28,232 nucleotides of DNA. It comes from a virus. A program made the position numbers and the translations under genes. Each line of letters opens with the position of its first letter. The first letter of the stretch is position 1. The notes under the pieces are model-generated. The model searched no databases. It was given only the letters and a program-made list of their open reading frames with translations, and was not told the DNA's origin. The stretch is taken from positions 1-28,232 of the IMG/VR virus record IMGVR_UViG_3300009593_000092; one strand, written 5' to 3'. Positions 4,349 through 28,232 of the stretch are shown here, in pieces.

Positions 4349-4374
4349 AGTTCCTTTCTCAATCATTGAAACCT

Positions 4375-6192: not shown

Positions 6193-6221
6193 TTGATTTT
6201 TCCTAAATACTCTGTTATACT
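6193..6221 (+). promoter_or_regulatory. Promoter for the IscA-like gene (sigma70 with embedded late-type motif)
   Basis: TTGATT (6193-6198), a 17-base spacer, then TATACT (6216-6221) form a good sigma70 promoter. The spacer contains CTAAATAC (6203-6210), identical to the motif ahead of gp18 and sharing TAAATA with the T4 late promoter, so the gene may be read both early and late. Confidence 0.65.
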
Positions 6222-6263: not shown

Positions 6264-6620
6264 ATGGATATTAGCTTAAGCGCTAGCGCACAAAGAATTA
6301 TTAATGAGACAATTGCGGAGGGAGAATATCTTCGTGTCTCTGCAAAGTCTGGGGGATGCTCTGGTTGGAAGTGGAGTCTTGAGACTGAAACTGGTTTGGA
6401 AGACCGAATGGACGATGTCTTCTTTACTGAGACTTTTGAGGTAAGATGTAACCATGATATACTTCATAAGGTTATCGGTTCTGTAACTATTGACTATTCT
6501 GATACTGGAAACTTAGTTGAGGATGGGTTTATCTTCCGTCGCCTCGTTGCCCCTGGCCACTCCTGTGGTTGTGGAGAGAGTTTCACTCCTATCTCTGAGA
6601 TACATAGCAATAAAGTATGA
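6264..6620 (+). CDS. IscA/HesB-like A-type iron-sulphur carrier
   Basis: The protein has 118 residues, the usual family length. The three Fe-S ligands of A-type carriers are present: C32 in GGCSG, and C101 and C103 in SCGCGESF; an extra C62 is not a family ligand. Such proteins accept or deliver Fe-S clusters or iron, and homologues occur in marine T4-like phages. ATG 6264 is preceded by AAGGACTTT. Its 3' end overlaps the convergent RuvC-like gene by 108 bases. Iron supply to the non-haem iron oxygenases encoded from 20276 onward is an attractive but unproved link. Confidence 0.85.
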   Translation: MDISLSASAQRIINETIAEGEYLRVSAKSGGCSGWKWSLETETGLEDRMDDVFFTETFEVRCNHDILHKVIGSVTIDYSDTGNLVEDGFIFRRLVAPGHSCGCGESFTPISEIHSNKV

Positions 6621-9482: not shown

Positions 9483-11627
9483 TTATACTGCCCCAACTGC
9501 TTCGCTAAATTCGACCCCAGAACGGACCGCAACGAATGTCAGTTGAATGAAGTTAATAGATTTAGTGGGCTTGATAAAGATATCAGCTGCGAACTTGTTA
9601 GCATCAATTAAGTCAGGAGTATTATTGGTTTCGTCACAAACAACTAAGAAGTCTGTGATACCTTGTCCTGATTTGATACCTTCCAAGAATCCCTCAATAA
9701 GTGAGGAGAAGTTCGACCTTGTGAACGCAGTATTGAACTGGAACAACTGGTCTCTCGCCGCTTGACCGATAACTTTTTCGCAGTAAATGAAAAGTCTACG
9801 GACGTTGATTCTGTCAAACGCACTTGGTTTTGGAGAAAGAGTTTTGTCACCAAAAAGAACTGTACCTTGGCCTGGGAAACTTACTACTGGGTTGTACCCA
9901 ATTCTGTAGAGTTCGTCCCTTTCTTCCTGTGTTGGATTGTAAGCCAAACGAATAGCACTGTTAATAGTACCTCGTTGGAATCCAGCAGGGGAAAACCATG
10001 TATCAGCGTCAGCGTCAGTCCTTGCAAGGATACCCGCAATGTCTCCGTTCAACGGAATCCAGCGATAGGTGTCATTGTATTTATCGTACTGATATCCCCA
10101 TCCAGTATCTAGGATAGAGTATGTTGACGATGTCAAGGATGTTCTGAAGTTTTTCAAATTTGAAAGTTCTTGATTTGGTTTGTTAACTACGTCTGAGAAC
10201 TCAGGAGAGATACAAACTACACAGTCCTTTCTCTTCCCTGCGATACCTGTGATGTAGTTAGCAAGTGTTGCCCCATCCCCTTCGGGTGGTGCACCCATCA
10301 TTATGATGGATATTTCAATAACGTTAGGGTCGTTGAACTTGTCCCATCCCAGTTGCATGTCGCCAACTGTGATAGCAGCTCCGTCACTTCCGCCAGTCAT
10401 TTCAAAGTAATAGTTTTGTTTGACTGTCGTAAAACGAGCGTTCTTTGTGTATCCTCCCCAGTCTCCAGTCGCCGCGGCCATCGCTTCGTTTGGATGGTTC
10501 AACCAAGCTACGTACTGTGAAGTGTTATTGATTCTCTGTTTGTAATAGATGCTCGCACCTTCAGGTGACTTTGCATCTCGACCTACAGACAAGTTAGACC
10601 ATGACTCAATGACATCGTCTTCTACTTCTGTCCAATCAGCGGCGTAGTCGTAGATAACACAATGTATTTCGTCATTTGTAGCGTTCGCTGTTTCAGCGTG
10701 ACTACTTGTGCCTGGAGCTGAGTCAAAGTTCAATGCGAACTTCCATCTCTTATCGTAACTCGTTCCACCTGCAATAGCGGTAGTCGAGATAGTATGTTTC
10801 AATGTCATTGAAGTCGCTGACTCAATGGAAACAATCTCTGATGTGTTAGCTCCGACAACAATAGAGTCTCCTACAATGAAGTCTGTATTGAAAGCTGTTC
10901 CAGTTCCAACAACTGTTAAACTGTTGGCTGTCAAGGATACTGTTCCAATCATATTGAAATCTTCAAAGTTGGAATGTATCATCCTTGTTGCGGTTGAACT
11001 CGCAGCTTGGTCGGCCAATGGATATGTGAAATCGCATTGGGTATTTGATGTTACTGAAGCAACGTGAAAAACGTTGCCGTTGATGGAGACTTTTGCTCCA
11101 ACAAATAATTCTTCGTCAAAAAGCGTACCTGTTCCTGTGCAGACTCCAGATACAACCTCACAAGTCCCAGACATTTCAATAGCTGGAGTGTCGGCTGGAC
11201 ACATAGCTATACCAAGGGAATTCCCCAAGGTGCCTGGAAATTTTGCTGCCCAGAACCTATTTGGAGTGGAATCTAAGTTTCCACCTTGGTCTGGGTCTAG
11301 TCCGATATAGGCGTCGGCGTTTTTAATCAAACGGCCTCCCCCATCAGTCGTAGCGTTCATTGCGTCATCAGCTACGACTCTGACTAATCTTAGGTTGTTA
11401 CTGTAGCTCAGGAAGTTTGCCGCAGCATAATAATGAACGTAGGTGTCTTCGTTAGGTGCTCCAAACCTCGCACGGAGGTTAGGTTCTGATGTCACCAATG
11501 TGATGTCATCAACTGGACCCCATACAAACTGTCCCACTCCAGCAGCGATAGAAGTCGCTACTGCAGGAGTTCCAGTAGTAAGGTCAATCTCCCTAATCGA
11601 GACGCCTGGACTTATTGGAAATGCCAT
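9483..11627 (-). CDS. 18: Contractile tail sheath protein gp18
   Basis: The protein has 714 residues (T4: 659). The N-terminus FPISPGVSIREIDLTTGTPA and the C-terminal half (IYCEKVIGQAARDQLFQFNT and the preceding strands) are characteristic of Myoviridae sheath proteins. The sheath surrounds the tube and contracts on infection. Residues 153-294 contain an insertion of two tandem beta-repeats (annotated separately), which accounts for the extra length. The ribosome site AAGGAGTTAT before ATG 11627 is strong, and a late-type CTAAATAC motif lies 47-54 bases upstream, in the 66-base gap after the terminase gene. Confidence 0.95.
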   Translation of the reverse strand: MAFPISPGVSIREIDLTTGTPAVATSIAAGVGQFVWGPVDDITLVTSEPNLRARFGAPNEDTYVHYYAAANFLSYSNNLRLVRVVADDAMNATTDGGGRLIKNADAYIGLDPDQGGNLDSTPNRFWAAKFPGTLGNSLGIAMCPADTPAIEMSGTCEVVSGVCTGTGTLFDEELFVGAKVSINGNVFHVASVTSNTQCDFTYPLADQAASSTATRMIHSNFEDFNMIGTVSLTANSLTVVGTGTAFNTDFIVGDSIVVGANTSEIVSIESATSMTLKHTISTTAIAGGTSYDKRWKFALNFDSAPGTSSHAETANATNDEIHCVIYDYAADWTEVEDDVIESWSNLSVGRDAKSPEGASIYYKQRINNTSQYVAWLNHPNEAMAAATGDWGGYTKNARFTTVKQNYYFEMTGGSDGAAITVGDMQLGWDKFNDPNVIEISIIMMGAPPEGDGATLANYITGIAGKRKDCVVCISPEFSDVVNKPNQELSNLKNFRTSLTSSTYSILDTGWGYQYDKYNDTYRWIPLNGDIAGILARTDADADTWFSPAGFQRGTINSAIRLAYNPTQEERDELYRIGYNPVVSFPGQGTVLFGDKTLSPKPSAFDRINVRRLFIYCEKVIGQAARDQLFQFNTAFTRSNFSSLIEGFLEGIKSGQGITDFLVVCDETNNTPDLIDANKFAADIFIKPTKSINFIQLTFVAVRSGVEFSEAVGAV
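10746..11171 (-). repeat. Two tandem beta-repeat modules inserted in the tail sheath
   Basis: Sheath residues about 153-217 and 228-294 align with each other: VxGTGTxF, then F-x-VG-x-x-(V/I)-x-(I/V), a Val-Ser-rich strand, then a Thr-Leu or Phe-Thr strand and a terminal Arg. The first copy has three Cys (156, 163, 198), the second none. Such 60-70 residue modules recur in marine phage tail proteins and are probably surface-exposed decorations. Confidence 0.6.
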
Positions 11628-17831: not shown

Positions 17832-18611
17832 TTATTCTATGAAAAAATCCATTGGGAGTTCGTAATTCAGACTCATTTCTTCTTCGAGTCTGGCTAAGTT
17901 TTCTTTCGCTTCCTGCATAATAGCATCGCCATTCAGACTTACTCCGCCTGGCAATTGAACTCCTACCAACTTAACAAGGTTCGAACCCCATTGGTATCGA
18001 ACCAACTCTGTGGCGTATTTCTTCAACCACATATCTGAAAATGCATCTGTGTTCTCTGTAGGGTCGAGTCTTTTAAATGCAACCATTACAATATAGTCGT
18101 GCAAATTAATGTCTGGTGCCCTATTAGCAGAAAGTCCGTTTACTGCTGAGGACGGCCACATTAAGTCGAGGTAGAGTTTATCCGTATGTCTATTGAAACG
18201 TATGTTCTGTCCTCTACTTCCAAATGTTTCATCGATGAGGTCCAGATGTTCCATCGTCATATGAAAGTTAGAAAGATTTCCTTGGGTCAGGTGAGGCATC
18301 TCGTTCATCATGTATTGATACTTGAAGGAGAACATCCCTGAAATGTTTCGGTGAGAAATAGGCGGTAAAATGCGCTCGATACCGATGTAAGAATCTGTTA
18401 CTGGTATGTAAGTATTATCGATGTCAGTCTGAGTGACTTGATGTCTAACGTATGTTCTTTCGCTTCCATCAAAGTGATATTCCTGCCACTTCTGGACTGC
18501 TTCATCGATTCTGTCTTCAACCTGTTCATCAGCCACGTTTATCTCAATGACTGGTTTCCCAAGTTTACGGAGACAGTATTCTTTAAAGTCTGCTCTACTA
18601 GCAATCGGCAC
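17832..18611 (-). CDS. 13: Neck protein gp13
   Basis: The protein has 259 residues. The start SRADFKEYCLRKLGKPVIEI followed by DEQVEDRIDEAVQKWQEYHF is the hallmark of gp13 in T4-like marine phages; further on, YIPVTDSYIGIERILPP and MWLKKYATELVRYQWGSNL agree. With gp14 it closes the portal after packaging and connects head to tail. The start codon is GTG (18611) with TAGGGGGTCCA before it. Transcription probably starts from the CTAAATAG motif at 18644-18651. Confidence 0.92.
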   Translation of the reverse strand: MPIASRADFKEYCLRKLGKPVIEINVADEQVEDRIDEAVQKWQEYHFDGSERTYVRHQVTQTDIDNTYIPVTDSYIGIERILPPISHRNISGMFSFKYQYMMNEMPHLTQGNLSNFHMTMEHLDLIDETFGSRGQNIRFNRHTDKLYLDLMWPSSAVNGLSANRAPDINLHDYIVMVAFKRLDPTENTDAFSDMWLKKYATELVRYQWGSNLVKLVGVQLPGGVSLNGDAIMQEAKENLARLEEEMSLNYELPMDFFIE

Positions 18612-18617
18612 TGGACC

Positions 18618-18653
18618 CCCTAAATAGTTTGGTTTATTACTATCTATTTAGGG
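18618..18653. promoter_or_regulatory. Interlocked divergent late-type promoters in a perfect inverted repeat
   Basis: CCCTAAATAG (18618-18627) and CTATTTAGGG (18644-18653) form a perfect 10-bp inverted repeat with a 16-base gap. Each arm is therefore CTAAATAG on its own strand, the TAAATA core of T4 late promoters. The plus arm points into the 18662 gene and the minus arm into gp13, both with leaders of about 25-30 bases. Confidence 0.55.
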
Positions 18654-18661
18654 ATTATGAA

Positions 18662-20014
18662 ATGATTGAATGGGGATTATCCTTCGGGTCACACGACTCG
18701 GCTATTGCCGTATTTGAAGATAATGAGCTTGTGTTCGCCACAGAGGGCGAAAAATGGTCTCGCAGGAAGCACGATAAACAACTTTCACAAAAACTTCTCT
18801 CCTATGTTTTAGAAAAATGGGGAGAACCTACCGAAATTTACTACTTTGAAGACTGGGAAAAGAAAGAGCATAGGAGAAAAGTCGCAGGACAAGAACCTAA
18901 ACTCAAACCCAGTATGATGGCTGGAAAGCATTACAATGTTTGGAACATTACTGGTCACCATCATTCACACGCTAGCTGGGGCTATTATTCTAGTCCATAT
19001 ACTGACTGCACAACCATCGTCATCGACGCTATCGGTGAATGGGATACTATGTCTATCTGGAGATGCTCGGGGGGACGAATGTCAAAAATTTCAGGATGGC
19101 ATTATCCAGAGTCGTTAGGACTATTATATACTGCAGCGACAATAGCGGGTGGATGGAAACCCAACTCAGAAGAATACAAGATGATGGGCGCCTCAGCTTA
19201 TGGTCAAGGCGACAAAGAATATAAACATCTCAAAGAACTCTGGAAATCAGGATACAACTTTCATAAAGGATGGAAATATGAAGGTGACAAGTTTGAAATA
19301 GCGGCAGGTGCTCAGAGAGTTTATAGAGAAGCCCTAGAGTTGATAACAAGATACGTAACTGGACCTATTGTTCTCGTTGGTGGATGTGCGTTAAATACAT
19401 CTGCAAATAAAAATATTGGAGGAGAACTTTACATTCCTCCTGCTCCAAATGATGCTGGTTCGGCGATAGGATGTGTTTTAGCACATAAACAAATTCAACT
19501 TGACATCAACCCATTTTTAGGGTATAATATATCCAATGAACTTAAGCTAGAAAAACTATATGATTGCTTGGCTACCACAGGACTTGTGGGTTCTTGTCAC
19601 GGGCGTACAGAGTTCGGACCTCGTGCACTTGGTTCTAGGTCTATACTTGCTGACCCCCATGTTAAGGGATGGAGGGAGAAACTCAACAAGATCAAAAAAC
19701 GAGAACCTTGGAGACCATTCGGAATGATGTGTAGAGAAATAGACTTAGAGAAATATGTCTATAGACACAGACCTTCTCCTTATATGGACCAATGTTTTGA
19801 TGCCAAAGAAACCTTAGACGAATATGAAGACCTGAAACACAAAGACGGAAGTGTTCGTGTTCAGACAATAAAGAGTGACCATCCTCTTTGGCCTTTATTT
19901 GACAGATGGCCGATACTTGTAAATACATCGTTGAACTTGAACGGAAGTCCACTTGTCAACGATGAAGCCGACCTTGAAGAGTTTAAGAGGTCAACTGACT
20001 TAATGATACCATGA
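18662..20014 (+). CDS. Carbamoyltransferase (TobZ/NodU/CmcH family)
   Basis: The protein has 450 residues from ATG 18662 (AGGGA seven bases upstream; the earlier in-frame ATG 18629 overlaps the late promoter region). The Kae1-like N-terminal half shows LSFGSHDSAIAVFEDNEL, the EGEKWSRRKHD segment, the metal-binding GHHHSHASWGYYSS (98-111), VIDAIGEWD (D122, D128), EEYKMMGASAYG and VGGCALN. The C-terminal half has GRTEFGPRALGSRSILADP and WRPFG, then LVNTSLNLNGSPLV. The family transfers carbamoyl phosphate, through carbamoyl-AMP, to a hydroxyl group; known acceptors include antibiotics, Nod factors and, for phage relatives, 5-hydroxymethylcytosine in DNA. It is somewhat shorter than NodU (about 560). 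It leads the plus-strand cluster. The acceptor here is unknown. Confidence 0.88.
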   Translation: MIEWGLSFGSHDSAIAVFEDNELVFATEGEKWSRRKHDKQLSQKLLSYVLEKWGEPTEIYYFEDWEKKEHRRKVAGQEPKLKPSMMAGKHYNVWNITGHHHSHASWGYYSSPYTDCTTIVIDAIGEWDTMSIWRCSGGRMSKISGWHYPESLGLLYTAATIAGGWKPNSEEYKMMGASAYGQGDKEYKHLKELWKSGYNFHKGWKYEGDKFEIAAGAQRVYREALELITRYVTGPIVLVGGCALNTSANKNIGGELYIPPAPNDAGSAIGCVLAHKQIQLDINPFLGYNISNELKLEKLYDCLATTGLVGSCHGRTEFGPRALGSRSILADPHVKGWREKLNKIKKREPWRPFGMMCREIDLEKYVYRHRPSPYMDQCFDAKETLDEYEDLKHKDGSVRVQTIKSDHPLWPLFDRWPILVNTSLNLNGSPLVNDEADLEEFKRSTDLMIP

Positions 20015-20337
20015 TAATAACAAATACAATACTTACTGTACCAGACAAAGAGTTTTCCTTTAAAGACGAAATAAAAGAATATCTGTATCAGTTTGTAGAA
20101 AAACATCCTTTCAGAGTGTTGAACAAACGAATAGCTGACGCACATGGCGAGGACTTATTCTCAATGACATTCGTCCCACCAAACATCGCTGTACTTACTC
20201 AACGATATCCGTTGAAACAACAATACAAAAGCGTCTTAATATTGAGAGAAGACGCCTTCAACATCCTACGAGAAAATGGAATCAAAGTCGATACATCGTT
20301 ACCATTTGAAGCTGAATATCAGTCTGATTCTGAATGA
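20011..20337 (+). CDS. Hypothetical cluster protein (108 aa)
   Basis: Unrecognised. Its ATG overlaps the TGA of the carbamoyltransferase gene (ATGA) and its 3' end overlaps the next gene by 62 bases, so it belongs to the same transcript and is probably coupled. It is a soluble alpha/beta protein with no Cys, no membrane segment and an acidic C-terminus (AEYQSDSE). No catalytic motif is evident. Confidence 0.65.
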   Translation: MIITNTILTVPDKEFSFKDEIKEYLYQFVEKHPFRVLNKRIADAHGEDLFSMTFVPPNIAVLTQRYPLKQQYKSVLILREDAFNILRENGIKVDTSLPFEAEYQSDSE

Positions 20338-20767
20338 GATAGAAGCCGTCAAAGAAAGACTGACAGTCCTTGAATACCAGAACCAATGGTGTCTTCAGTT
20401 ACCAAAAGGTGAAACTAATCCGACATATGGTTCTCGCGAAGGTAAAGACCTAAAACACACAGAGTTAGACTTCAATGAATGGTTGTTTGAGGATATGGCT
20501 TATACTCGGACAGTAGTTGAACTGATGAAGATGACAAGAACAAGATACATGGAAAACGAACCTAAGTCTTGCATGTCTTACCACAAAGACCCCTCAAAAA
20601 GAATTCATATTCCATTGATAACTGACCCAGACTGTTTCATTCTGGTTGGGAAAACAATACATCATCTTGAAGTAGGTGACGCGTATCTCGTTGATACAAC
20701 GCAGAAACATTCCTTTATAAATATGAGTAAAAAGTGTAAGAGAGTTCATCTAGTAGGAGGAGTGTGA
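20276..20767 (+). CDS. Asp/Asn beta-hydroxylase-like 2OG-Fe(II) oxygenase (1)
   Basis: The protein has 163 residues. A jelly-roll core is visible: H103-x-D105 (YHKDPSKRIHIPL) and H145 (QKHSFIN) supply the iron site, and R156 (KRVHLVGG) is placed to hold 2-oxoglutarate. The order and spacing match the aspartyl/asparaginyl beta-hydroxylase family. The N-terminal MESKSIHRYHLKLNI aligns with MEDVQLIKLDI of the oxygenase at 24149, supporting ATG 20276 despite the overlap. Both proteins also share FxEMxYTxxV before the core. It presumably hydroxylates a small molecule or side chain. It ends in a GTGA overlap with the SGNH gene. Confidence 0.75.
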   Translation: MESKSIHRYHLKLNISLILNEIEAVKERLTVLEYQNQWCLQLPKGETNPTYGSREGKDLKHTELDFNEWLFEDMAYTRTVVELMKMTRTRYMENEPKSCMSYHKDPSKRIHIPLITDPDCFILVGKTIHHLEVGDAYLVDTTQKHSFINMSKKCKRVHLVGGV

Positions 20768-21354
20768 TATACATTTTCGGCGACTCGTTCGCAGAGCCTT
20801 GCGCTTCGAACCATGATTATCTATGGTACAAAAACATCTCAGCGGAAAAGAAGGTTCATTACGGCAAGTCGGCAACAGGTCCAATATATACTATGGGGAA
20901 AGTCTATGAGTGCATTGAGTCTCAGTACATAACCCCAGAAGATAAAATGGTTGTGATGTTGTCAGACCCAAAACGAGAGGACCATTACGATGGGATGCAT
21001 CTAAGAATGTGTCTTGCAAATTATATTTATTTTTTGAAGTCATATTCAGAGCAGTACAAAGTACGGATTATCGTCTTCACCTGTTTCGCTAAAATGCTTG
21101 ACCCAAAGATGGTTGAGAATATTGACTCGTTTCATTTTCGTTTCTACCCAAACTCTTTATCTTGGATATCGGCAAATGAAATAGGAGAAGAGATACCAGA
21201 AAGAGACTTGAGGTCCAACCACTTCAAGAAGAAAAACCATCTCGTTTTAGCTGGAATTATCCGCAACCATTTTTACGGACAAACTAACCCAGAAATCTGG
21301 GATATGAAAACCGACACATTTTACCCCTCTTCGGAGTTTATTTACGATGCTTAA
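20764..21354 (+). CDS. SGNH/GDSL-type hydrolase-like protein
   Basis: The protein has 196 residues. The N-terminal strand IYIFGDSFAEP carries the GDS motif with S8 as presumed nucleophile. SNHFKKKNHLVLA at 151-163 carries the Asn-His/His pair expected near the C-terminus of the fold (H153 or H159). D68 and the SATGP segment could be the remaining blocks. Members are esterases or acyl and acetyl transferases and hydrolases. The start is GTG 20764 with GGAGGA upstream and a GTGA overlap with the preceding oxygenase. In this cluster it may add or remove an acyl group or release a product. Confidence 0.7.
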   Translation: MIYIFGDSFAEPCASNHDYLWYKNISAEKKVHYGKSATGPIYTMGKVYECIESQYITPEDKMVVMLSDPKREDHYDGMHLRMCLANYIYFLKSYSEQYKVRIIVFTCFAKMLDPKMVENIDSFHFRFYPNSLSWISANEIGEEIPERDLRSNHFKKKNHLVLAGIIRNHFYGQTNPEIWDMKTDTFYPSSEFIYDA

Positions 21355-22639
21355 AATCTGCATTATTGGTGGAGCGACTGCAGGTTGGTGGACCGCAGGA
21401 GCAATAGAAAAACTTCTACCAGACACAAAGATTGTACTTTACGACTCACCAGACATTCCTCACCTCGGCGTAGGTGAATCAACCCTACCACAAATTAAAA
21501 CTTGGTTCGACTCTTTGGGACTTCAGGAACACGAATGGGTGGATGAATGTAATGCCGTAAAGAAATATGGAAACTACAAACAAGGATGGGACAACCCCAT
21601 TGGAGACCCTTTCATATTAAGATTCTGGTACAATCGTGGCCATTTCAAAGAGATGATGGCGGACAACACGATGTGGTCATACAAGCCTGGGTTTGACAGG
21701 AGACCAGACAAACAAAAGTTCTGGGATAAGATAGAGACTGACTACGACTATGCGTATCATGTTTGTGCAGAATCCTCTGGACTGATGATGAGGAAAACCT
21801 GTGAAAGAACAGAAGTTCGTGAAGAAACTCTGACAGAACTGCCTTCTGGGTTTGATTTGTATCTTGACTGTACAGGCTTTGGTCGTAAGTTCGTCAAGGA
21901 CTTTACAGAAATGCCCATTTCCAAAAACCATACATTAGACAGAGCGTGGGTTTGTCCGATGCAAAGAGAAGACTTTCCTATTACAGAATACACAAAAAGT
22001 ATTGCTCGTAGGTTTGGATGGCAGTTTCAAGTTGACTTACAGAATCGAACAGGAATTGGTTATGTCTTTTCTAGTAGACACATAGATAACCAGAGCGCTC
22101 TTCTTGAATACCAAACTTTCTGGAAAGAGGACATGGTCCCTGGTCAAGAATGGTTGCACGAGAATCAGAAACCCCTTCATCAAATACGCAAACCAATAGA
22201 AGGAGTTGAACCCAGACTTATACAATGGAAACCAATGGTTCTAGAAAATCCTTGGTCTGACAATGTCGTAGCCCTTGGGTCGGCCGCAGGTTTCGTTGAC
22301 CCTCTTGAAGCGACTGCGTTGTTCAACCTTCAGGCTGGGATTGAAACTCTAATCAAAGCTATTCAACGCGGGAGTAGACCAAAAGCATACAACCGACAGA
22401 TGAGAAACATCTGGAGAGATAGTTTACGTTTTCAGGAATGTCATTACATCAATAGCGAAAGAGAAGACACAGGATTCTGGAGAAGTATAACAAAGGAAAG
22501 ACCCGAATACTCAAAGAAAGCATGGGACTACTACAACAAATATACCTCAGAGTTTTCTAATATTTTTCCATCAGGTATTTGGGCTCAACAAAATCTTTAT
22601 CAAAACACACATAAAGAATATTATGAGACTGCGAACTAA
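21347..22639 (+). CDS. Tryptophan-halogenase-family flavoprotein
   Basis: The protein has 430 residues. The FAD site GGATAGWW (8-15), GVGESTLP (41-48) and GSAAGFVDPLEATAL (311-325) identify the flavin-dependent tryptophan halogenase family. K73 in NAVKKYGNYKQGW aligns with the catalytic lysine of PrnA and RebH (K79), and E321 in PLEATAL with their active-site Glu. The diagnostic WxWxIP motif is changed: the equivalent segment reads GWQFQVDLQNRTGIGYVFSS. The protein is about 100 residues shorter than PrnA. It may be a true FADH2-dependent halogenase on a non-tryptophan substrate or a monooxygenase. Cyanophage halogenase VirX1 is the closest known precedent in phages. Confidence 0.82.
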   Translation: MLKICIIGGATAGWWTAGAIEKLLPDTKIVLYDSPDIPHLGVGESTLPQIKTWFDSLGLQEHEWVDECNAVKKYGNYKQGWDNPIGDPFILRFWYNRGHFKEMMADNTMWSYKPGFDRRPDKQKFWDKIETDYDYAYHVCAESSGLMMRKTCERTEVREETLTELPSGFDLYLDCTGFGRKFVKDFTEMPISKNHTLDRAWVCPMQREDFPITEYTKSIARRFGWQFQVDLQNRTGIGYVFSSRHIDNQSALLEYQTFWKEDMVPGQEWLHENQKPLHQIRKPIEGVEPRLIQWKPMVLENPWSDNVVALGSAAGFVDPLEATALFNLQAGIETLIKAIQRGSRPKAYNRQMRNIWRDSLRFQECHYINSEREDTGFWRSITKERPEYSKKAWDYYNKYTSEFSNIFPSGIWAQQNLYQNTHKEYYETAN

Positions 22640-23588
22640 TTACAGATACAACGATTTCCTTCAGGAATGTGAAATCATCTGGAATGCATACGAGAAGAAA
22701 CTACCTCTCTTCTACAATACATCTGGTTCAACTGGGAAACCCAAACAGATAGAAGTTCCTTTTGAAGTCTACAATATGGCCGCTCAGGAATCTATCCGTG
22801 CTCAAGAGTTGACAGAGGAATCTCATATTCTGAGTATTACTCTACCACCAACATCAATCGGTTTTCCTACTTTGAGTATCCTGCCTTCTCATATCACAGG
22901 TTGTGATATGACTGTCAAGAAGTTTGACTCATCAACCTTCTGCGAGGACTTGGTAGGTGACGATTATACTCACAGTTTTTTCATTCCTGCAGTCTTTCGA
23001 ACAATGTCAAAGACAAAGAAATGGAAAGACCTTGACCTTTCACAATACGATGTAATTGGTTGTGGTTCAGACATTCCGCCAGAGAATATGAAGGACGAAC
23101 TTTTCTCAAAAGGCGTGGGTAGATTCTGGCATGTCTATGGTTCTACAGAGGTTCCACCACCCATCTCTGCATCTGGTGATATCAAACATTTTGGAGAAGA
23201 CCTGTCTCCAGACATTCGTTGGAAACGACAAGAAGACGGAGAGTTGTATATCAAATGGAAGGCTCAGGAATATTATTGGAAGTCTGGTGACTTAGTTGAC
23301 GAGAACTTGAGGATGATAGGACGTAAGAAGAATATTCTGCACCTAAGTTGTTCACAGGTTCACCCTGAGTTGGTTGAAAAGTTCGTTACAGACAATACAA
23401 ATGCAACTCGTGCTCGTCTATCAAAAGAAGGACAAGGTCTAAAACTAGAATATGAAGGTAGTGAAGACAAACAGATAATACTAGACAGGTTGGAAGAATG
23501 GTATCAAGGAGAGAAAGTCGACTGGAATATCGTTGCAGGTAAAATTCCCACTAACCATATGAATAAAGTTGTCAGGAATAAAAGTTAA
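22623..23588 (+). CDS. Minimal adenylate-forming (ANL/AMP-binding) enzyme
   Basis: The protein has 321 residues, against 500-600 for usual acyl-CoA synthetases or adenylation domains. All core motifs are nevertheless present: TSGSTGKPK (33-41), VYGSTE (171-176), YWKSGDL (218-224), IGRKKN (232-237) and a C-terminal lysine K315 in NHMNKVVR. The missing parts are the N-terminal region before the P-loop and much of the C-terminal lid. It should activate a carboxylate as acyl-AMP; no CoA- or carrier-specific site can be read. ATG 22623 follows AAAGAATATT and overlaps the halogenase gene by 17 bases, so flavoprotein and ligase are co-translated. Confidence 0.82.
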   Translation: MRLRTNYRYNDFLQECEIIWNAYEKKLPLFYNTSGSTGKPKQIEVPFEVYNMAAQESIRAQELTEESHILSITLPPTSIGFPTLSILPSHITGCDMTVKKFDSSTFCEDLVGDDYTHSFFIPAVFRTMSKTKKWKDLDLSQYDVIGCGSDIPPENMKDELFSKGVGRFWHVYGSTEVPPPISASGDIKHFGEDLSPDIRWKRQEDGELYIKWKAQEYYWKSGDLVDENLRMIGRKKNILHLSCSQVHPELVEKFVTDNTNATRARLSKEGQGLKLEYEGSEDKQIILDRLEEWYQGEKVDWNIVAGKIPTNHMNKVVRNKS

Positions 23589-24126
23589 AAGTTTAGACGC
23601 TTCGGACTTCCCTCATTTGAAGAAGTGGTGTCCTTGGTGGACTAAACAAGGAGTAAAAAATAATGGAACTGTTTATGATATGCATCTGGACAGACTGGAA
23701 CTATGTTTGCTAACCTATGTAGACGGAGAACTTGGTGCTATTTCAGGCGTTGAAGACATTGGGGAAGGAACTTTTAGGATTCTTACAAGAGCTGCGACTA
23801 CCCCACACAGACCTAGAAGTAGGTCAAGAGAGTTCTACGAGGACAATCTGTATCATTGGAGAGGCCACGCAGGTTTTGAGGTCGCATATATCAGAGACTT
23901 CCACCGAGCCGACGCGAAGTTCATCATGACCACTAATCATGGAGAACAATCGACAAGAACAATAAAGAAGTGGCGTCGTAGCTTTCGTTGCATTAAGAAA
24001 GAAGAATCCTATGAGATTGACCTTCATCATACAAAACAAATAGCCTGGCCAGTAGATGGCGATGCGTGTATTGAAATGGGTAGAGAAACATTTCCAATGT
24101 GGGAAGAACGCCTAAATAGACTATAG
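23569..24126 (+). CDS. Possible GNAT-like acyltransferase (185 aa)
   Basis: The likely start is TTG 23569; no ATG occurs in the first 37 codons, and the conserved-looking start IKVKSLDASDFPHLKKW is just behind it. The layout (N-terminal strand and helix, LLTYVDGELGAISGVED hairpin, RILTRAATTPHRPRSRSRE loop, then MTTNHGEQSTRTIKKWRRSF) resembles a GNAT acetyltransferase fold, whose arginine-rich loop binds the CoA pyrophosphate. The Q/RxxGxG/A motif is not clean, so the assignment is tentative. An acyltransferase next to an adenylating enzyme would make biochemical sense. It overlaps the ANL gene by 20 bases. Confidence 0.55.
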   Translation: MSGIKVKSLDASDFPHLKKWCPWWTKQGVKNNGTVYDMHLDRLELCLLTYVDGELGAISGVEDIGEGTFRILTRAATTPHRPRSRSREFYEDNLYHWRGHAGFEVAYIRDFHRADAKFIMTTNHGEQSTRTIKKWRRSFRCIKKEESYEIDLHHTKQIAWPVDGDACIEMGRETFPMWEERLNRL

Positions 24127-24148
24127 CACACCCTTTTGGAGAATATAT

Positions 24149-24847
24149 ATGGAAGATGTACAATTAATAAAACTTGACATCGATGTCGACAAAATAGTCG
24201 ATGAAGTTGAACGTTTAAATGAATATGAGTATTTCACAGACGCTTCAAGTCAGAAATTCAGGACTGAGTTCGGCTCTGATGGAAAGATATTCGCAGACAA
24301 AGGAAAAGAGGGAGTGGCATATTGTCACGATGGTCGTGCTAGACTTCAACTTCCAGACCATGTAGATGACCCCTTCTATCTGGTTGGCGGGTCGAGACCT
24401 GAGAAATTCGAAAAGGTAACTGAGTCTTGTCATCGTTCATACGCAGAATGTAAAGAGGCCAATCTCCAAGGGTGCGCTTGTAAGGACGATTGGACAAAGC
24501 CCGCGTTCAAAGAGATGGAATATACCAACCAAGTAATGGCAGAACTGGGCATGTGTAAAACAGGACTGGCGAAGATGCCTCCAAGTTACGCTCTACCCAG
24601 ACATGCTGACCCCCATGTAAAACTTCACGTACCAGTAAAATCTAATGAGGATGTCGCATTTCTTATTAAACAAGAAGACAAGTCGTGGAAAGCATACAAC
24701 CTACCTTCTGATGGAAATGCTTATCTGGTAAATGTGACTAAACCACACTCAGTATCAAATGCTTCTACAGAGAATAGAATTCATTTGGTAGGCGAGTTGT
24801 TGGATAACAGTCCTTACTCAAAACTTATTGATGAAGAGCTTAGATAA
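24149..24847 (+). CDS. Asp/Asn beta-hydroxylase-like 2OG-Fe(II) oxygenase (2)
   Basis: The protein has 232 residues. The iron site is H152-x-D154 (LPRHADPHVKLHVPV) and H200 (TKPHSVSN), with R210 (NRIHLVGE) for 2-oxoglutarate. It is a clear paralogue of the 163-residue protein at 20276. Before the core it has an insertion with four Cys at 94, 101, 109 and 111 (SCHRSYAEC ... GCACKDDW) absent from the paralogue; this may bind zinc or form a lid. ATG 24149 follows TTTGGAGAATATAT and is the only gene of the cluster with a real gap (22 bases) before it. Confidence 0.78.
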   Translation: MEDVQLIKLDIDVDKIVDEVERLNEYEYFTDASSQKFRTEFGSDGKIFADKGKEGVAYCHDGRARLQLPDHVDDPFYLVGGSRPEKFEKVTESCHRSYAECKEANLQGCACKDDWTKPAFKEMEYTNQVMAELGMCKTGLAKMPPSYALPRHADPHVKLHVPVKSNEDVAFLIKQEDKSWKAYNLPSDGNAYLVNVTKPHSVSNASTENRIHLVGELLDNSPYSKLIDEELR

Positions 24848-25499
24848 CCCAGTTCAATGTAAGTTCATACCTCATCTCCTTGAGTCTGGATATGAACATC
24901 TAGTAGAAGAAGTTAAAGATACAAAATGGGAAGTCGAGACCAAACCAGATGTTTCTGGAAAACATCGACTTGTCAAATTTACCTGCAAAGAAAATAGACC
25001 CCCTAAAAACTTATTTGAAGTACGACTTGAGATGGGCAGTGAAGCGCACTGCAAACGATATAAGTGGGTCGACATTCCTCTTCATGAATACGAACATGGT
25101 TTCAATGTTACCCCCGAAAGATATCAAGAAATAACGACCATGCCGTTTCCTTTCCTAGAGGACAGGAGACTTGAGATAATGTGTGCGGCACATTATACGC
25201 CAGGCCATACAGTAGAATACTCAGTTAAAAATGGGTATATTTTTGTTGACCTAAATCATGTAACCCTTGAAGCAGACTGGTGGATGAAAGACTGGATTCC
25301 ACTTACTGAAAATCAGGAACTTAAATTCCTGAGCGATAAATACTCCGTGAAATACGAGGATGGCGATTGGCTAGTCCTCAAGTTTAAGACACATAATGAA
25401 AGAGACAAATACCTCTCCAACGACTCTGAGTACAGAAAGCTCAAAGACCAGTATGGATGGAAAGAACACTTGGGAAAGTTTTTTAAAGTACAGCCCTAG
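24831..25499 (+). CDS. Hypothetical cluster protein (222 aa)
   Basis: Unrecognised. ATG 24831 is used; a TTG three bases earlier is also possible. The protein is soluble and aromatic-rich, with WVDIPLHEYEHGF, a beta-rich middle (HTVEYSVKNGYIFVDLNH) and a charged helical end. His-Glu-His residues in HEYEH and HVTLEADWW could coordinate metal, but no family motif is certain. It overlaps the oxygenase gene upstream by 17 bases and the next gene by 47. Confidence 0.65.
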   Translation: MKSLDNPVQCKFIPHLLESGYEHLVEEVKDTKWEVETKPDVSGKHRLVKFTCKENRPPKNLFEVRLEMGSEAHCKRYKWVDIPLHEYEHGFNVTPERYQEITTMPFPFLEDRRLEIMCAAHYTPGHTVEYSVKNGYIFVDLNHVTLEADWWMKDWIPLTENQELKFLSDKYSVKYEDGDWLVLKFKTHNERDKYLSNDSEYRKLKDQYGWKEHLGKFFKVQP

Positions 25500-26211
25500 A
25501 CTTTGGTATTACGCTGTCAAGCCTATCACTCCTTGTTCGTTTCCAAAGATAGACGATGAGGGATTCTTTTGCGAGTCAAAAGAGTTCGATGGTAAACTTC
25601 TCATCAAGTGGTCACTTCCAGAACTCAGGGGATATCAAATACCCAGACCCCTCCACGGCAGACACACTCACCATTGGTCATATGATACTTGGACTCTTCT
25701 TAATAAAGAAGGATTCCTGCCCGTGTTAGATTACGAATATGAAGAACCAGAGAAGATAGATGAAGAAAGATGGGACTACCTTCTAGAAAGACAAACACGT
25801 AAAATACTAAAGATAGAGGTAAGCGAAGATGTCTTCATACTATCATCCTGTTGTTACACAACATTCATATTTGAGTCTCCCCAAGAATGTAAAGGTATCA
25901 AATCATTTCGTTCGCAGTTTGATTTTTCTGCGATAGATGAGATGTTGACAGATAACCTTTACAACGATATTACTCCTGCTCTCTGGACTATTCCAAATAG
26001 TGATGAAGAAGGTATGGGTAACTTTTACAGAATGATTGACCCATTTCGTATGGCGTTAACTATTAAATTCAGAAAAACAAATGATATCTCGTTTGAACAA
26101 CTTGAAGACTACAGATGTGAGGTCATTGACCTGCCTCAGTTGAAGGAGTTTAAAGGTCCAAAGCGTATATACAAAGGTAAACTATTTGAGGTAGTCGATG
26201 GAGAAGAATGA
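25453..26211 (+). CDS. Hypothetical cluster protein (252 aa)
   Basis: Unrecognised. ATG 25453 (MDGKNTWESFLKYSP) is preceded by AAAGACCAGT; the frame extends further upstream to 25396, but that part is fully antiphase to the preceding gene and looks low-complexity (Thr/Ser-rich), so I exclude it. The central part has PRPLHGRHTHHWSYDTW, dense in His. The second half shows strands around VFILSSCCYTTFIFES and a helical end. It overlaps the next gene by 14 bases. Confidence 0.6.
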   Translation: MDGKNTWESFLKYSPRLWYYAVKPITPCSFPKIDDEGFFCESKEFDGKLLIKWSLPELRGYQIPRPLHGRHTHHWSYDTWTLLNKEGFLPVLDYEYEEPEKIDEERWDYLLERQTRKILKIEVSEDVFILSSCCYTTFIFESPQECKGIKSFRSQFDFSAIDEMLTDNLYNDITPALWTIPNSDEEGMGNFYRMIDPFRMALTIKFRKTNDISFEQLEDYRCEVIDLPQLKEFKGPKRIYKGKLFEVVDGEE

Positions 26212-26899
26212 ATACTATGAGCTTCACAAGCAGAATCTCATAACAACGAAATATAAAATCGATGTGGAACAATTTGAGGAGCAGATCAAATTATTTCCAT
26301 TTATGAAATGGGGCGATATGTATCCTGAGTTAGACAGGTGGGCAACTCCCCTAGTCAACTCAACAGGAATGCAATCTCAAGGAGAAGATGAGTCGATAGG
26401 TCCGTTGGACAGAACAAACTTTCTCAAGATGTATCCTCATCACAAACATCAAATATGGACAGACGACCATCTCCGTGACTGGAAAAACTACTTTGGTCCC
26501 AACGGAGCAAAGCCTACTGAGATGATGCTTGAAAACGATTTTCAAATGAAATGTCCAGCTCTAAGTATTACATCCTTAGACCCCATTGATGAACTGAAAC
26601 CATATATGTATCGGTCATCAATACTGAAGTGGAACTATGGAGCCCACTTTTTACGACACTACGATAACTGGTTTCCAGCCCAATGGATAAGACTCTGGGG
26701 CACAACCAGACCTGACAGAATGGTTCTCCGATATGAAGAAGGACACACAGGACAAATGATTGAGGAAAAAGCTATCGAGCCAGGCCAACTATATTTACAT
26801 GACTCCGTTAAACCTCACGAGGCGTTGGCCTATCGTGATGGAGTCTATCAATTTTTTATTGCATTAAACCCTGAATGTCTGAAGATAGGTATCTTCTAG
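26198..26899 (+). CDS. 2OG-Fe(II) oxygenase-like protein, Asp/Asn hydroxylase type (3)
   Basis: The protein has 233 residues. HFLRHYDNWFPAQWIRLWG gives H154-x-D156, and VKPHEALAYRDG gives H207 and R213; EPGQLYLHDSVKPH resembles the strand-turn before the distal His in this fold. It is more distant from the two other members than they are from each other, so the assignment rests on the metal triad and spacing. GAGGTAGTCG before ATG 26198 is a good ribosome site. The N-terminal 110 residues are unassigned. Its end overlaps the next gene by 25 bases. Confidence 0.65.
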   Translation: MEKNEYYELHKQNLITTKYKIDVEQFEEQIKLFPFMKWGDMYPELDRWATPLVNSTGMQSQGEDESIGPLDRTNFLKMYPHHKHQIWTDDHLRDWKNYFGPNGAKPTEMMLENDFQMKCPALSITSLDPIDELKPYMYRSSILKWNYGAHFLRHYDNWFPAQWIRLWGTTRPDRMVLRYEEGHTGQMIEEKAIEPGQLYLHDSVKPHEALAYRDGVYQFFIALNPECLKIGIF

Positions 26900-27405
26900 T
26901 ACCAAACTGTACAGAAGAAAAAGATTTAATAATACAAGAACTCTGTCACGACTATCGTTCCGTGACAATGAAGAAATGTCTACTCCATGAGTTTAAACCT
27001 ACAACTCCGTTTGACGAAAGTCGGACAGTAGGAATAAATTTACAGTTCACCAACGAAAAGGAATATGAGATGTTTCTGCAGTTTGTCTATGATAAACGCG
27101 GAAGTATTCATTACCCTCAAGCCCTTGACTGGTTACCAATATCAGAAGAGGAATGGAAGTCTGGAGAGATACCGAATCGGGAAACCCCTATCTATAAAGA
27201 GGGGGAAGTTGTCGACCAGTATGGACTTCAATGGTATCCCGAAAGAATAGAAAAGTATAGAAAAAAATACAAAGGCTACCGAATAAAAAACTTCGGCAAG
27301 TATAGAGAGAGTCTTGATGGTCAAGACTTATTTGTTACAACTGAAGATGAGGTTGAGGAGATAGACCCCATCATAGTTAAGTTTCCTTATTATGCAAACA
27401 AATGA
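26875..27405 (+). CDS. Hypothetical cluster protein (176 aa)
   Basis: Unrecognised. ATG 26875 lies within the end of the oxygenase gene, without a strong ribosome site, so translation is probably coupled. The protein is charged and aromatic; the segment VGINLQFTNEKEYEMFLQFV near 52-71 has the strand-helix style also seen near the end of the 24831 product (LVLKFKTHNERDKYL). The second half is Lys/Tyr-rich. It overlaps the next gene by 14 bases. Confidence 0.62.
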   Translation: MSEDRYLLVPNCTEEKDLIIQELCHDYRSVTMKKCLLHEFKPTTPFDESRTVGINLQFTNEKEYEMFLQFVYDKRGSIHYPQALDWLPISEEEWKSGEIPNRETPIYKEGEVVDQYGLQWYPERIEKYRKKYKGYRIKNFGKYRESLDGQDLFVTTEDEVEEIDPIIVKFPYYANK

Positions 27406-28000
27406 TTTTTCAATTCTGGAAAGACCCAGAGTTGACATTGTAGAAGGTGAAAAGTTCATAGACTTTGAACTCTACAGAACTCCTACCACTCGCTCATATC
27501 ACAAGATAGATTGGAATAATCTAACTATCCAACGTGTCAGAAGTCTTACAGACTACGATGGAGAGATACGAGCCAAAGCAACCATTTACTGGACTTATCC
27601 CAAAAAAGGTTTTGCGTCAGGTTCAATGCCCCACAGAGATGTGGAGTCTTGTTTAGCTACGCACGTAATTCCTCTGGAGGATAACTGGGAACCAGAATGG
27701 GGTGGACAGCTCCGTTTCTATGAGGACGGAGTTATCCCTCAAGACTACAGAAATATCATGGCAAAACTGGTGTCGAAACATCCAACTGAACTGGCTAAGA
27801 AACTATTAGACCAGTATAAAAATACTGGATGGAATCCACCTCATTTCTGGCAGATGGAAATGGACGCCAGAGAGTCCGTGATATTCAAGAACTCAACGAC
27901 ATCGTGGCATGGAGTCGCAGACTTGAGAACAACACAACCAAGAAGAGTGCTTATTATCACTTACCATAATAATGAAGACCCTTATAAATACGGCGACTGA
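27392..28000 (+). CDS. Prolyl-4-hydroxylase-type 2OG-Fe(II) oxygenase
   Basis: The protein has 202 residues. MPHRDVESCLATHVIPL carries H81-x-D83, WGGQLRFYED is the characteristic strand after it, and SVIFKNSTTSWHGV carries the distal H173, with R184/R185 (PRRVLIITYHN) binding 2-oxoglutarate. It belongs to the P4H-like oxygenases frequent in marine T4-like phages and differs in type from the three Asp/Asn-hydroxylase-like proteins of the cluster. ATG 27392 overlaps the preceding gene by 14 bases, and the stop overlaps the ATG of the transporter gene (TGATG). Confidence 0.85.
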   Translation: MQTNDFSILERPRVDIVEGEKFIDFELYRTPTTRSYHKIDWNNLTIQRVRSLTDYDGEIRAKATIYWTYPKKGFASGSMPHRDVESCLATHVIPLEDNWEPEWGGQLRFYEDGVIPQDYRNIMAKLVSKHPTELAKKLLDQYKNTGWNPPHFWQMEMDARESVIFKNSTTSWHGVADLRTTQPRRVLIITYHNNEDPYKYGD

Positions 28001-28232
28001 TGATTAATATTTATATCCTTGCAGTTATCATTCTATTTGTTCTTTTCCTTACTGTATCAAGGGGGAGGAACCATAACTATTTTATTCCAGAGAACAACTC
28101 AAATATGTCTGTAGGTTTTTCCTATGGTGCAACCCTTGTCTCAACCTCTGCTATCGTAGGTTTCGGAGGACTTGCAGGATGGTTAGGATACTCTGTATTC
28201 ACGCTCCTGTTCGCTCTCTCACTATCAACGTT
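28000..28232 (+). CDS. Sodium:solute symporter-family transporter, N-terminal part (runs off window)
   Basis: An open frame begins at ATG 28000, overlapping the TGA of the oxygenase gene, and remains open for 77 codons to the edge. Residues 3-18 form a first membrane helix, followed by a basic loop (SRGRNHNYFIPENN). SVGFSYGATLVSTSAIVGF then GGLAGWLGY is the start of the second helix region typical of the SSS family, where the small Ser/Ala/Gly residues near the helix break line the Na+ and substrate site. In the cluster it could import a precursor or export a product. Only the first 77 residues are visible, so substrate and completeness are unknown. Confidence 0.7.
   Translation, partial: MINIYILAVIILFVLFLTVSRGRNHNYFIPENNSNMSVGFSYGATLVSTSAIVGFGGLAGWLGYSVFTLLFALSLST

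Follow-up and report, generated by a model that had tools for sequence, protein, structure and literature searches.

The IMG/VR virus record IMGVR_UViG_3300009593_000092, which is complete in the 28,232-base window analysed here (the whole stretch of DNA), is a fragment of a marine T4-like myophage, a virus of bacteria, and raises the question of what a long run of carbamoyltransferase, oxygenase, flavoprotein and adenylate-forming enzyme genes does beside the virion genes of such a phage. Tentatively, the most plausible reading is that this cluster is the proximal part of one tailoring pathway, lodged in a hypervariable slot, that would make a late glycan-type or small-molecule decoration. 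About seven genes form a core whose members remain close to each other in distant phages, and for this reason the core probably makes one product. The single co-inherited pathway proposed in an earlier sequence-only reading is supported by synteny, by the fusion of two core genes, by purifying selection and by a common late-type promoter.

Layout of the cluster

By family searches, the minus-strand virion genes of the window include those of the portal, tail sheath, terminase, head-closure and head-tail adaptor proteins. The nearest matches of the terminase (51-54% identity) are in T4-like phages of Methylophilales, Pelagibacter and cyanobacteria. The gene of the head-tail adaptor Ad2 (gp13-type; 17832..18611, minus strand; phrog_211, 4e-35) is a conserved virion gene that borders the cluster. 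Divergent from the virion genes, the plus strand from 18662 to the contig end holds 13 complete open reading frames (ORFs) and a truncated 14th (g1 to g14), with intergenic gaps of no more than 30 bases and no minus-strand genes called. ORF starts were assigned by rule, and some genes were read by eye. Neighbouring genes overlap by 4 to 62 bases at all but three junctions: g7 and g8 are separated by a 22-base gap, g13 and g14 overlap by 1 base, and g9 and g10 overlap by 104 bases with the first ATG of g10, for which a later start is possible. The earlier count of at least twelve plus-strand genes therefore stands, and these three junctions depart from the 4- to 62-base overlaps ascribed to them. 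The family libraries scanned (Pfam, PHROGs and NCBIfam among them) did not recognise g2, g4, g7, g9, g10, g11, g12 or g14.

A core gene set that stays together

Relatives were sampled by motif-based scans, which miss distant relatives, and the contig counts given here are lower bounds. The core comprises: (i) the carbamoyltransferase g1, (ii) the flavoprotein g5, (iii) the pair g6 and g7, (iv) g2 and g11, and (v) usually a hydroxylase of PF05118. It co-occurs in nine other contigs, where the gene order is reshuffled and the members mostly stay together. The contig L001 (9.5 kb) carries g1 to g5 and the start of g6 in the window order, at 62-88% protein identity; between it and the window, the ratio of nonsynonymous to synonymous differences (pN/pS) is 0.12-0.35 for g1 to g5 and 0.10-0.19 for three virion genes, and g1 to g5 are under purifying selection. 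The contig G001 (80.8 kb) has the left border of the window (66% identity for the gp13-type protein and 64% for the terminase), followed by homologues of g1, g7, g3, a nitroreductase, g2, g5 and g6, then by radical S-adenosylmethionine (radical-SAM) and unknown genes, and then by g11. Most of the core set is found in other orders in G002, G003, L050, G004, L036, L037 and L038; the flavoprotein of L038 is a different one, 25% identical, and L037 has none in the stretch read. A nitroreductase gene lies near the flavoprotein gene in G001 to G004 and L050. In four relatives (L009 of G004, L036, L037 and L038), g2 and g11 are fused into one protein. Conserved synteny, to which the sequence-only reading had looked as a test, is thus found in the nine uncultured relatives, none of which carries the core scattered. 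In the more distant contigs, the closest relative of the window's g5 is that of G004 (63%) and the closest of its g1 that of G001 (62%); because the nearest relative differs by gene, cassettes appear to be exchanged between phages while the set is retained.

Searched at the DNA level, the whole cluster had no match among deposited phages, and neither had the ANL protein (g6) or the g2, g4, g7, g9, g10, g12 and g14 proteins. The four oxygenases of the window gave one match there, in Mosig EXVC030M. A motif-based search of 84,980 species genomes with the ANL protein found its sole match in L050, a contig of a metagenome-assembled genome (MAG) of Chloroflexi. L050 is itself a phage-type island with a GC content of 28.7%, versus 38-43% in the other contigs of the MAG that were sampled, and g11 is absent from 150 other genomes of Chloroflexi searched. 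No cellular source cluster was found in the 84,980 genomes, searched by motif, or in the 150 further genomes of the phylum. The contigs G010:C1 (161,038 bases) and C19 (L050, L057) of the Chloroflexi MAG represent a T4-like phage genome of 27.5-29% GC. This phage genome is probably mis-binned, and possibly gives a hint of the host.

Promoters and timing

Between the gp13-type gene and g1 (18612..18661) lies a predicted divergent late-type promoter pair, CCCTAAATAG on the plus strand at 18620 and CCCTAAATAG on the minus strand at 18651. All 50 bases are identical in L001, in which about 0.66-0.70 of the synonymous sites of the two flanking genes have changed; G001 also has two divergent CTAAATA elements in the corresponding position. 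This motif was reported as a late-promoter core in a T4-like phage (PMC1524935). Of its 7 occurrences in the window, 4 precede a start on their own strand by no more than 80 nt (5% expected; binomial about 2e-4), as do 7 of 20 in G001 (3% expected), compared with 0/8 in G002, 1/9 in G003 and 3/20 in G004. The total count of CTAAATA in the window shows no excess, and only its location at gene starts is enriched; the T4 late motif TATAAATA shows no excess in the window, and a scan for promoter and terminator consensus sequences returned nothing useful. The promoter argument is read as holding for the lineage of the window, L001 and G001, because G002, G003 and G004 show little or no start bias. 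Late expression of the island with the virion genes is likely in that lineage, as suggested by the conserved CTAAATA pair at the head, the placement of sites at gene starts and a second site before g8.

Enzymes encoded by the cluster

The gene g1 (18662..20014, plus strand, with its ATG at 18662) encodes a predicted O-carbamoyltransferase of the NodU/TobZ family. Both domains required for membership are present (PF02543 and PF16861; Carbam_trans_N 1e-30 and Carbam_trans_C 2e-35), with further matches to phrog_1601 and to GdmN and TobZ in the PDB. The TobZ, GdmN and novobiocin O-carbamoyltransferases share the N and C domains with g1 and are matched by sequence in the PDB; they act on known antibiotics. 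The residue of g1 at what is presumably the equivalent of TobZ W408 is a serine.

A phage carbamoyltransferase of the same Pfam family acts on 5-hydroxymethylcytosine (PMC8670742). This enzyme and a QueC-like PP-loop protein in the relatives are consistent with hypermodification of DNA (or RNA), in which hydroxylated bases would be carbamoylated and acylated, evading restriction. Such a role is very improbable and becomes the least favoured of the options that the sequence-only reading had offered, because the validated DNA-acting carbamoyltransferases co-occur with thymidylate synthase or deoxycytidylate hydroxymethylase (PMC8670742), and PF00303 is found in 0 of 7 records (six fragments and, as the seventh, a draft genome with a 161-kb phage contig). 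The proteins scanned included no recognisable TET/JBP or other base-specific enzyme, and the promoter is of the late type. While both carbamoyltransferases are of phages, the partners of g1 are 2-oxoglutarate (2OG) oxygenase, ANL, GNAT and flavoprotein genes.

The gene g5 (21347..22639, plus strand) encodes a flavoprotein of the tryptophan-halogenase family (PF04820, 6e-61; VirX1 in the PDB, 8e-31). Its flavin motif, GGATAG in the window and GGxxxG in the aligned relatives, is of the GxGxxG type. In an alignment of 13 sequences, among them the protein of HTVC008M and two from Syn10, the catalytic Lys and Glu (K73 and E321 of g5, the former corresponding to K79 of PrnA/RebH) are invariant. The WxWxIP motif is lost in g5 (GWQFQVD in the window and GWTFEVN, GWEFEIS or GWQFQID in relatives), while the Syn10 and HTVC008M proteins have GWVWNIP or GWVWKIP. 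With this motif degenerate, g5 is not counted as a proven halogenase, and its reaction may be halogenation or that of a flavin oxygenase or oxidase. VirX1 of cyanophage Syn10 reportedly is a viral flavin-dependent halogenase, said to have been described by Gkotsi in 2019. It shares with g5 the fold family and the catalytic Lys and Glu, whereas g5 is about 25-27% identical to it, is shorter, has a GW(Q/T/E)F-type motif in place of WxWxIP throughout its subfamily and lies within a conserved gene set.

The gene g6 (22623..23588, plus strand) encodes a minimal ANL adenylate-forming enzyme (PF00501, 1.4e-11) that retains the C-terminal subdomain motifs and lacks most of the N-terminal subdomain of typical 500-aa members, the Pfam profile aligning from position 170. 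Its motifs TSGSTGxPK, YGSTE, SGD, GRKKNI and MNKxxR, from the P-loop through the C-terminal lysine, are invariant in four sequences. The product of g7 (23569..24126, plus strand) is predicted to be a GNAT-fold N-acyltransferase: its AlphaFold2 (AF2) model, built with nine sequences (predicted local distance difference test score, pLDDT, of 77.5), matches by Foldseek (2e-5) and by VIA-align (Z 10.8; 3.7 Å over 156 residues), where the matches listed are GNAT folds. The GNAT gene stands beside the ANL gene in the window, G002, G003, G004, L036, L037 and L038; the two are separated by one gene in L050 and lie in a common block in G001. A 202-aa ANL-like protein that ends after the A5 region, always beside GNAT, is observed in L009:11672-12280 (G004), L036, L037 and L038.

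Since the ANL and GNAT pair, the flavoprotein and the carbamoyltransferase belong to typical natural-product tailoring families, the unit could instead make a diffusible specialised metabolite (siderophore-like, a signal or an antibacterial) secreted by the infected cell, with g14 (28000..28232, plus strand), a hydrophobic protein of 77 aa cut by the contig end, as exporter or importer. This is rather unlikely: no assembly-line enzyme or dedicated scaffold synthase is seen, late timing leaves little time, and the location is beside tail genes. The transporter named in the sequence-only reading is unconfirmed, as g14 had no match in any library or other search made. Phage-borne biosynthetic gene clusters are reported (Dragos 2021, as cited in PMC10452541). 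Like these, the island would be a multi-gene biosynthetic system on a phage; unlike them, it is carried by a T4-like phage and has no assembly line. The clusters of Dragos 2021 are said to be classical biosynthetic clusters of temperate phages.

The oxygenases of the cluster include an Asp/Asn beta-hydroxylase-like 2OG enzyme, g3 (20276..20767, plus strand; PF05118, Asp_Arg_Hydrox, 1.4e-9), in which H103-x-D105, H145 and R156 are invariant and which, with a profile, matches the beta-hydroxylase PDB 7v4f (1e-21). A second PF05118 hydroxylase, g8 (24149..24847, plus strand; 2.4e-7), has its own CTAAATA upstream at 24112, and both g3 and g8 have the HxD...H...R residues of the family. The core gene g11 (26198..26899, plus strand) encodes a putative Fe(II) oxygenase in which H154-x-D156...H207 is invariant in seven homologues; profile and structure-sequence searches gave it no Pfam or PDB match, and it is likely a third oxygenase of the HxD...H kind. 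The product of g13 (27392..28000, plus strand) is a P4H-like 2OG-Fe(II) oxygenase candidate that matches 2OG-FeII_Oxy_3 (PF13640, E 1.5e-5) at 26.3 bits, just under the 27-bit Pfam cut-off. The 108-aa product of g2 (20011..20337, plus strand) is predicted to form a dimeric alpha-beta barrel (AF2 pLDDT 91.1) that resembles dimeric ferredoxin-like and antibiotic-biosynthesis-monooxygenase (ABM) proteins, with middling scores (Foldseek 3e-4; VIA Z 8.5). A cofactor-free oxygenase is not claimed for g2, the fold match being middling.

The families that the sequence-only reading assigned to g1, g5 and g6 are thus borne out, and its possible acyltransferase takes shape as the modelled GNAT fold of g7. 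Halogenation by g5 is not established. Two of the three Asp/Asn-hydroxylase-like oxygenases, g3 and g8, are confirmed by PF05118, g11 is a putative oxygenase by its invariant motif, the P4H-like enzyme falls just below threshold, and one of the four unknowns, g2, now has a predicted fold.

A larger island in a known slot

Judged from the relatives, the window cluster is the left end of an island of 29-50 kb. In G001, the plus-strand block 12363-41501 (29 kb) has 14 radical-SAM matches; in G002, the island covers roughly 10475-58457 of a contig with 19-20 such matches; and in G004, it covers 2058-50521 of a contig with 13. These three islands terminate in a common gene block. The gene set of the sequence-only reading is thus only the left end of what is a larger island in relatives, and the commonest enzymes of the relatives, the radical-SAM proteins, are not in the window. 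The density of radical-SAM genes is extraordinary, at 13-20 per contig (G001:C1:12363-41501, equal to L016-L017; G002; G004; G010:C1).

The families recognised in at least one island are QueC-like, nitroreductase, SPASM/twitch radical-SAM, B12-binding radical-SAM, 2OG oxygenases and MORN repeats, with cytidylyltransferase and DegT and class I aminotransferases also in G004. MORN-repeat proteins are noted within the islands at L009:14122-14976 and L036:5483-7267. Amidinotransferase-like, sulfotransferase-like, SGNH-like and glycosyltransferase-like proteins of the islands were read by eye, and those tested had no Pfam match. A saxitoxin-like reading (amidinotransferase with carbamoyltransferase) was set aside, as the rest of that pathway was not seen. 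Phages with tail tubes of about 24-27% identity share a 474-aa twitch/SPASM-type radical-SAM protein at 83-91% identity, and its relatives in deposited phages are only 27-29% identical.

The twitch-domain radical-SAM family of the islands (NF033640) and the PF05118 enzymes would also suit modification of a ribosomally synthesised and post-translationally modified peptide (RiPP) or of a virion protein. Radical-SAM/SPASM enzymes and Asp/Asn hydroxylases would act on the peptide or tail protein, which carbamoylation and acylation would decorate, and in G001 the island adjoins very large tail proteins, the longest of 3545 aa. Such a product is improbable, as a precursor peptide would not fit into gaps of at most 30 bases in the window and 32 in G001. 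The sole conserved small ORF (DUF6356, in G001 to G003) is missing elsewhere, and a precursor-binding domain is not reported among the proteins scanned.

The slot of the island is a known one. Between VrlC and gp14, marine T4-like phages carry a large variable region, the host recognition cluster, which in pelagimyophages averages 44.6 kb, carries glycosyltransferases and, in one comparison, has added radical-SAM cassettes (PMC7029224). A hyperplastic region of cyanomyophages is described (Millard 2009, as cited in PMC3037559), and cyanophages sporadically carry genes for tryptophan halogenase, carbamoyltransferase and 2OG oxygenases (PMC3037559). The island has a gp13-type left border in the window, L001 and G001 and a tail/baseplate-side right border in G001, and it resembles both regions in its place in the virion block, with neck genes on one side and the tail module on the other, its large size and its tail-side neighbours. 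The host recognition cluster is described as non-syntenic (PMC7029224), whereas the island has a recurring enzymatic core of about seven families; as non-synteny is a descriptive trait there, the slot assignment stands. An enzyme-rich region at this place is therefore no novelty in itself, the slot being known as hypervariable. No description of the recurring core combination was found in the literature searched, and its families and slot were already known.

A proposed pathway

The pathway, whose order of reactions, substrate and destination we infer, would begin with g6 activating a carboxylic acid as an acyl-adenylate (acyl-AMP) or thioester and g7 transferring the acyl group onto an amine. 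The g2 and g11 proteins and the PF05118 and P4H enzymes would hydroxylate the scaffold, g5 would oxidise or halogenate it with reduced flavin from the nitroreductase neighbour seen in relatives, and g1 would O-carbamoylate a newly made hydroxyl. Radical-SAM enzymes would add further modification in the relatives, and the heavily modified decoration, made late, would be destined for the virion or tail or for the surface of the infected cell.

Several observations weigh against this pathway: (i) the window, whose contig ends inside the island, has no radical-SAM match, (ii) no nucleotide-sugar pathway or confirmed glycosyltransferase is found in the window, and the proteins at the end of the G001 island that were read as glycosyltransferases had no Pfam match, (iii) adenylation may not be intact in all relatives, as the 202-aa ANL protein of the G004 type is without the C-terminal part, (iv) the loss of WxWxIP bears against halogenation by g5, (v) part of the window set is lineage-specific, the other islands having no relatives of g9, g10, g12 or g13, and (vi) the halogenase and carbamoyltransferase genes of cultured phages are far apart, at 64 and 129 kb in HTVC008M and at 107 and 132 kb in S-SSM7. 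In HTVC008M, the halogenase gene adjoins the terminase gene, and the carbamoyltransferase gene lies 65 kb off near UDP-glucose dehydrogenase, methyltransferase and glycosyltransferase genes. Four 2OG oxygenase genes of HTVC008M count in favour of the pathway, being divergent from its Ad2 gene, the virion gene that borders the island in the window.

The last two points, the known hypervariability of the slot and the different histories of g5 and g1 suggest that the genes could be independent auxiliary enzymes gathered there, each with a different host or phage target. This is unlikely, if the least so of the alternatives. Although the genes are shuffled and the phages have diverged deeply, nine other contigs keep about seven families inside stretches of a few kb to some 15 kb. 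In addition, four relatives have g2 and g11 as a single protein, GNAT and ANL are found together, and close relatives conserve the promoter at the head of the cluster.

Should the core indeed encode a single pathway, late infection by these phages would yield a complex product of phage origin. That would tie the long-noted halogenases and carbamoyltransferases of marine T4-like phages, together with their 2OG oxygenases and radical-SAM genes, to one function and would point to new enzymes. The genes g1 to g8 with g11 would serve as a defined set open to experiment, in place of isolated 'auxiliary' genes. Possible, yet doubtful, is the wider claim that some of these phages give 30-50 kb to a single late biosynthetic programme, in which 13-20 radical-SAM enzymes would work alongside 2OG oxygenases, a flavoprotein and transferases for acyl, carbamoyl and amidino groups to build a decoration of a chemical class new to viruses.

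Other genes of the window

The product of g4 (20764..21354, plus strand) is SGNH-hydrolase-like by motif only. Its GDS and SNH-type motifs, read by eye, fit the hydrolase named in the sequence-only reading, and Pfam, NCBIfam and the PDB gave no match; at least 12 homologues occur throughout the islands. For g9 (24828..25499), g10 (25396..26211, with its uncertain start) and g12 (26875..27405), all on the plus strand, no relatives were found in the family libraries, deposited phages and islands searched.

Among the minus-strand virion genes lies a lone plus-strand gene (6264-6620) for a HesB/IscA-like iron-sulfur protein, with a PF01521 match just under the cut-off and its own CTAAATA at 6203. 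The tail sheath (9483-11627, minus strand) has an insert at residues about 225-300 that matches the tail-fibre PHROGs phrog_1980, 2712 and 24607. At 393-1823 and 1940-4366 (minus strand), an AAA_5 ATPase adjoins a large VWA-looking protein, a CobS/CobT-like pair by eye that recurs in G005, L012 and L013 near another halogenase-family gene.

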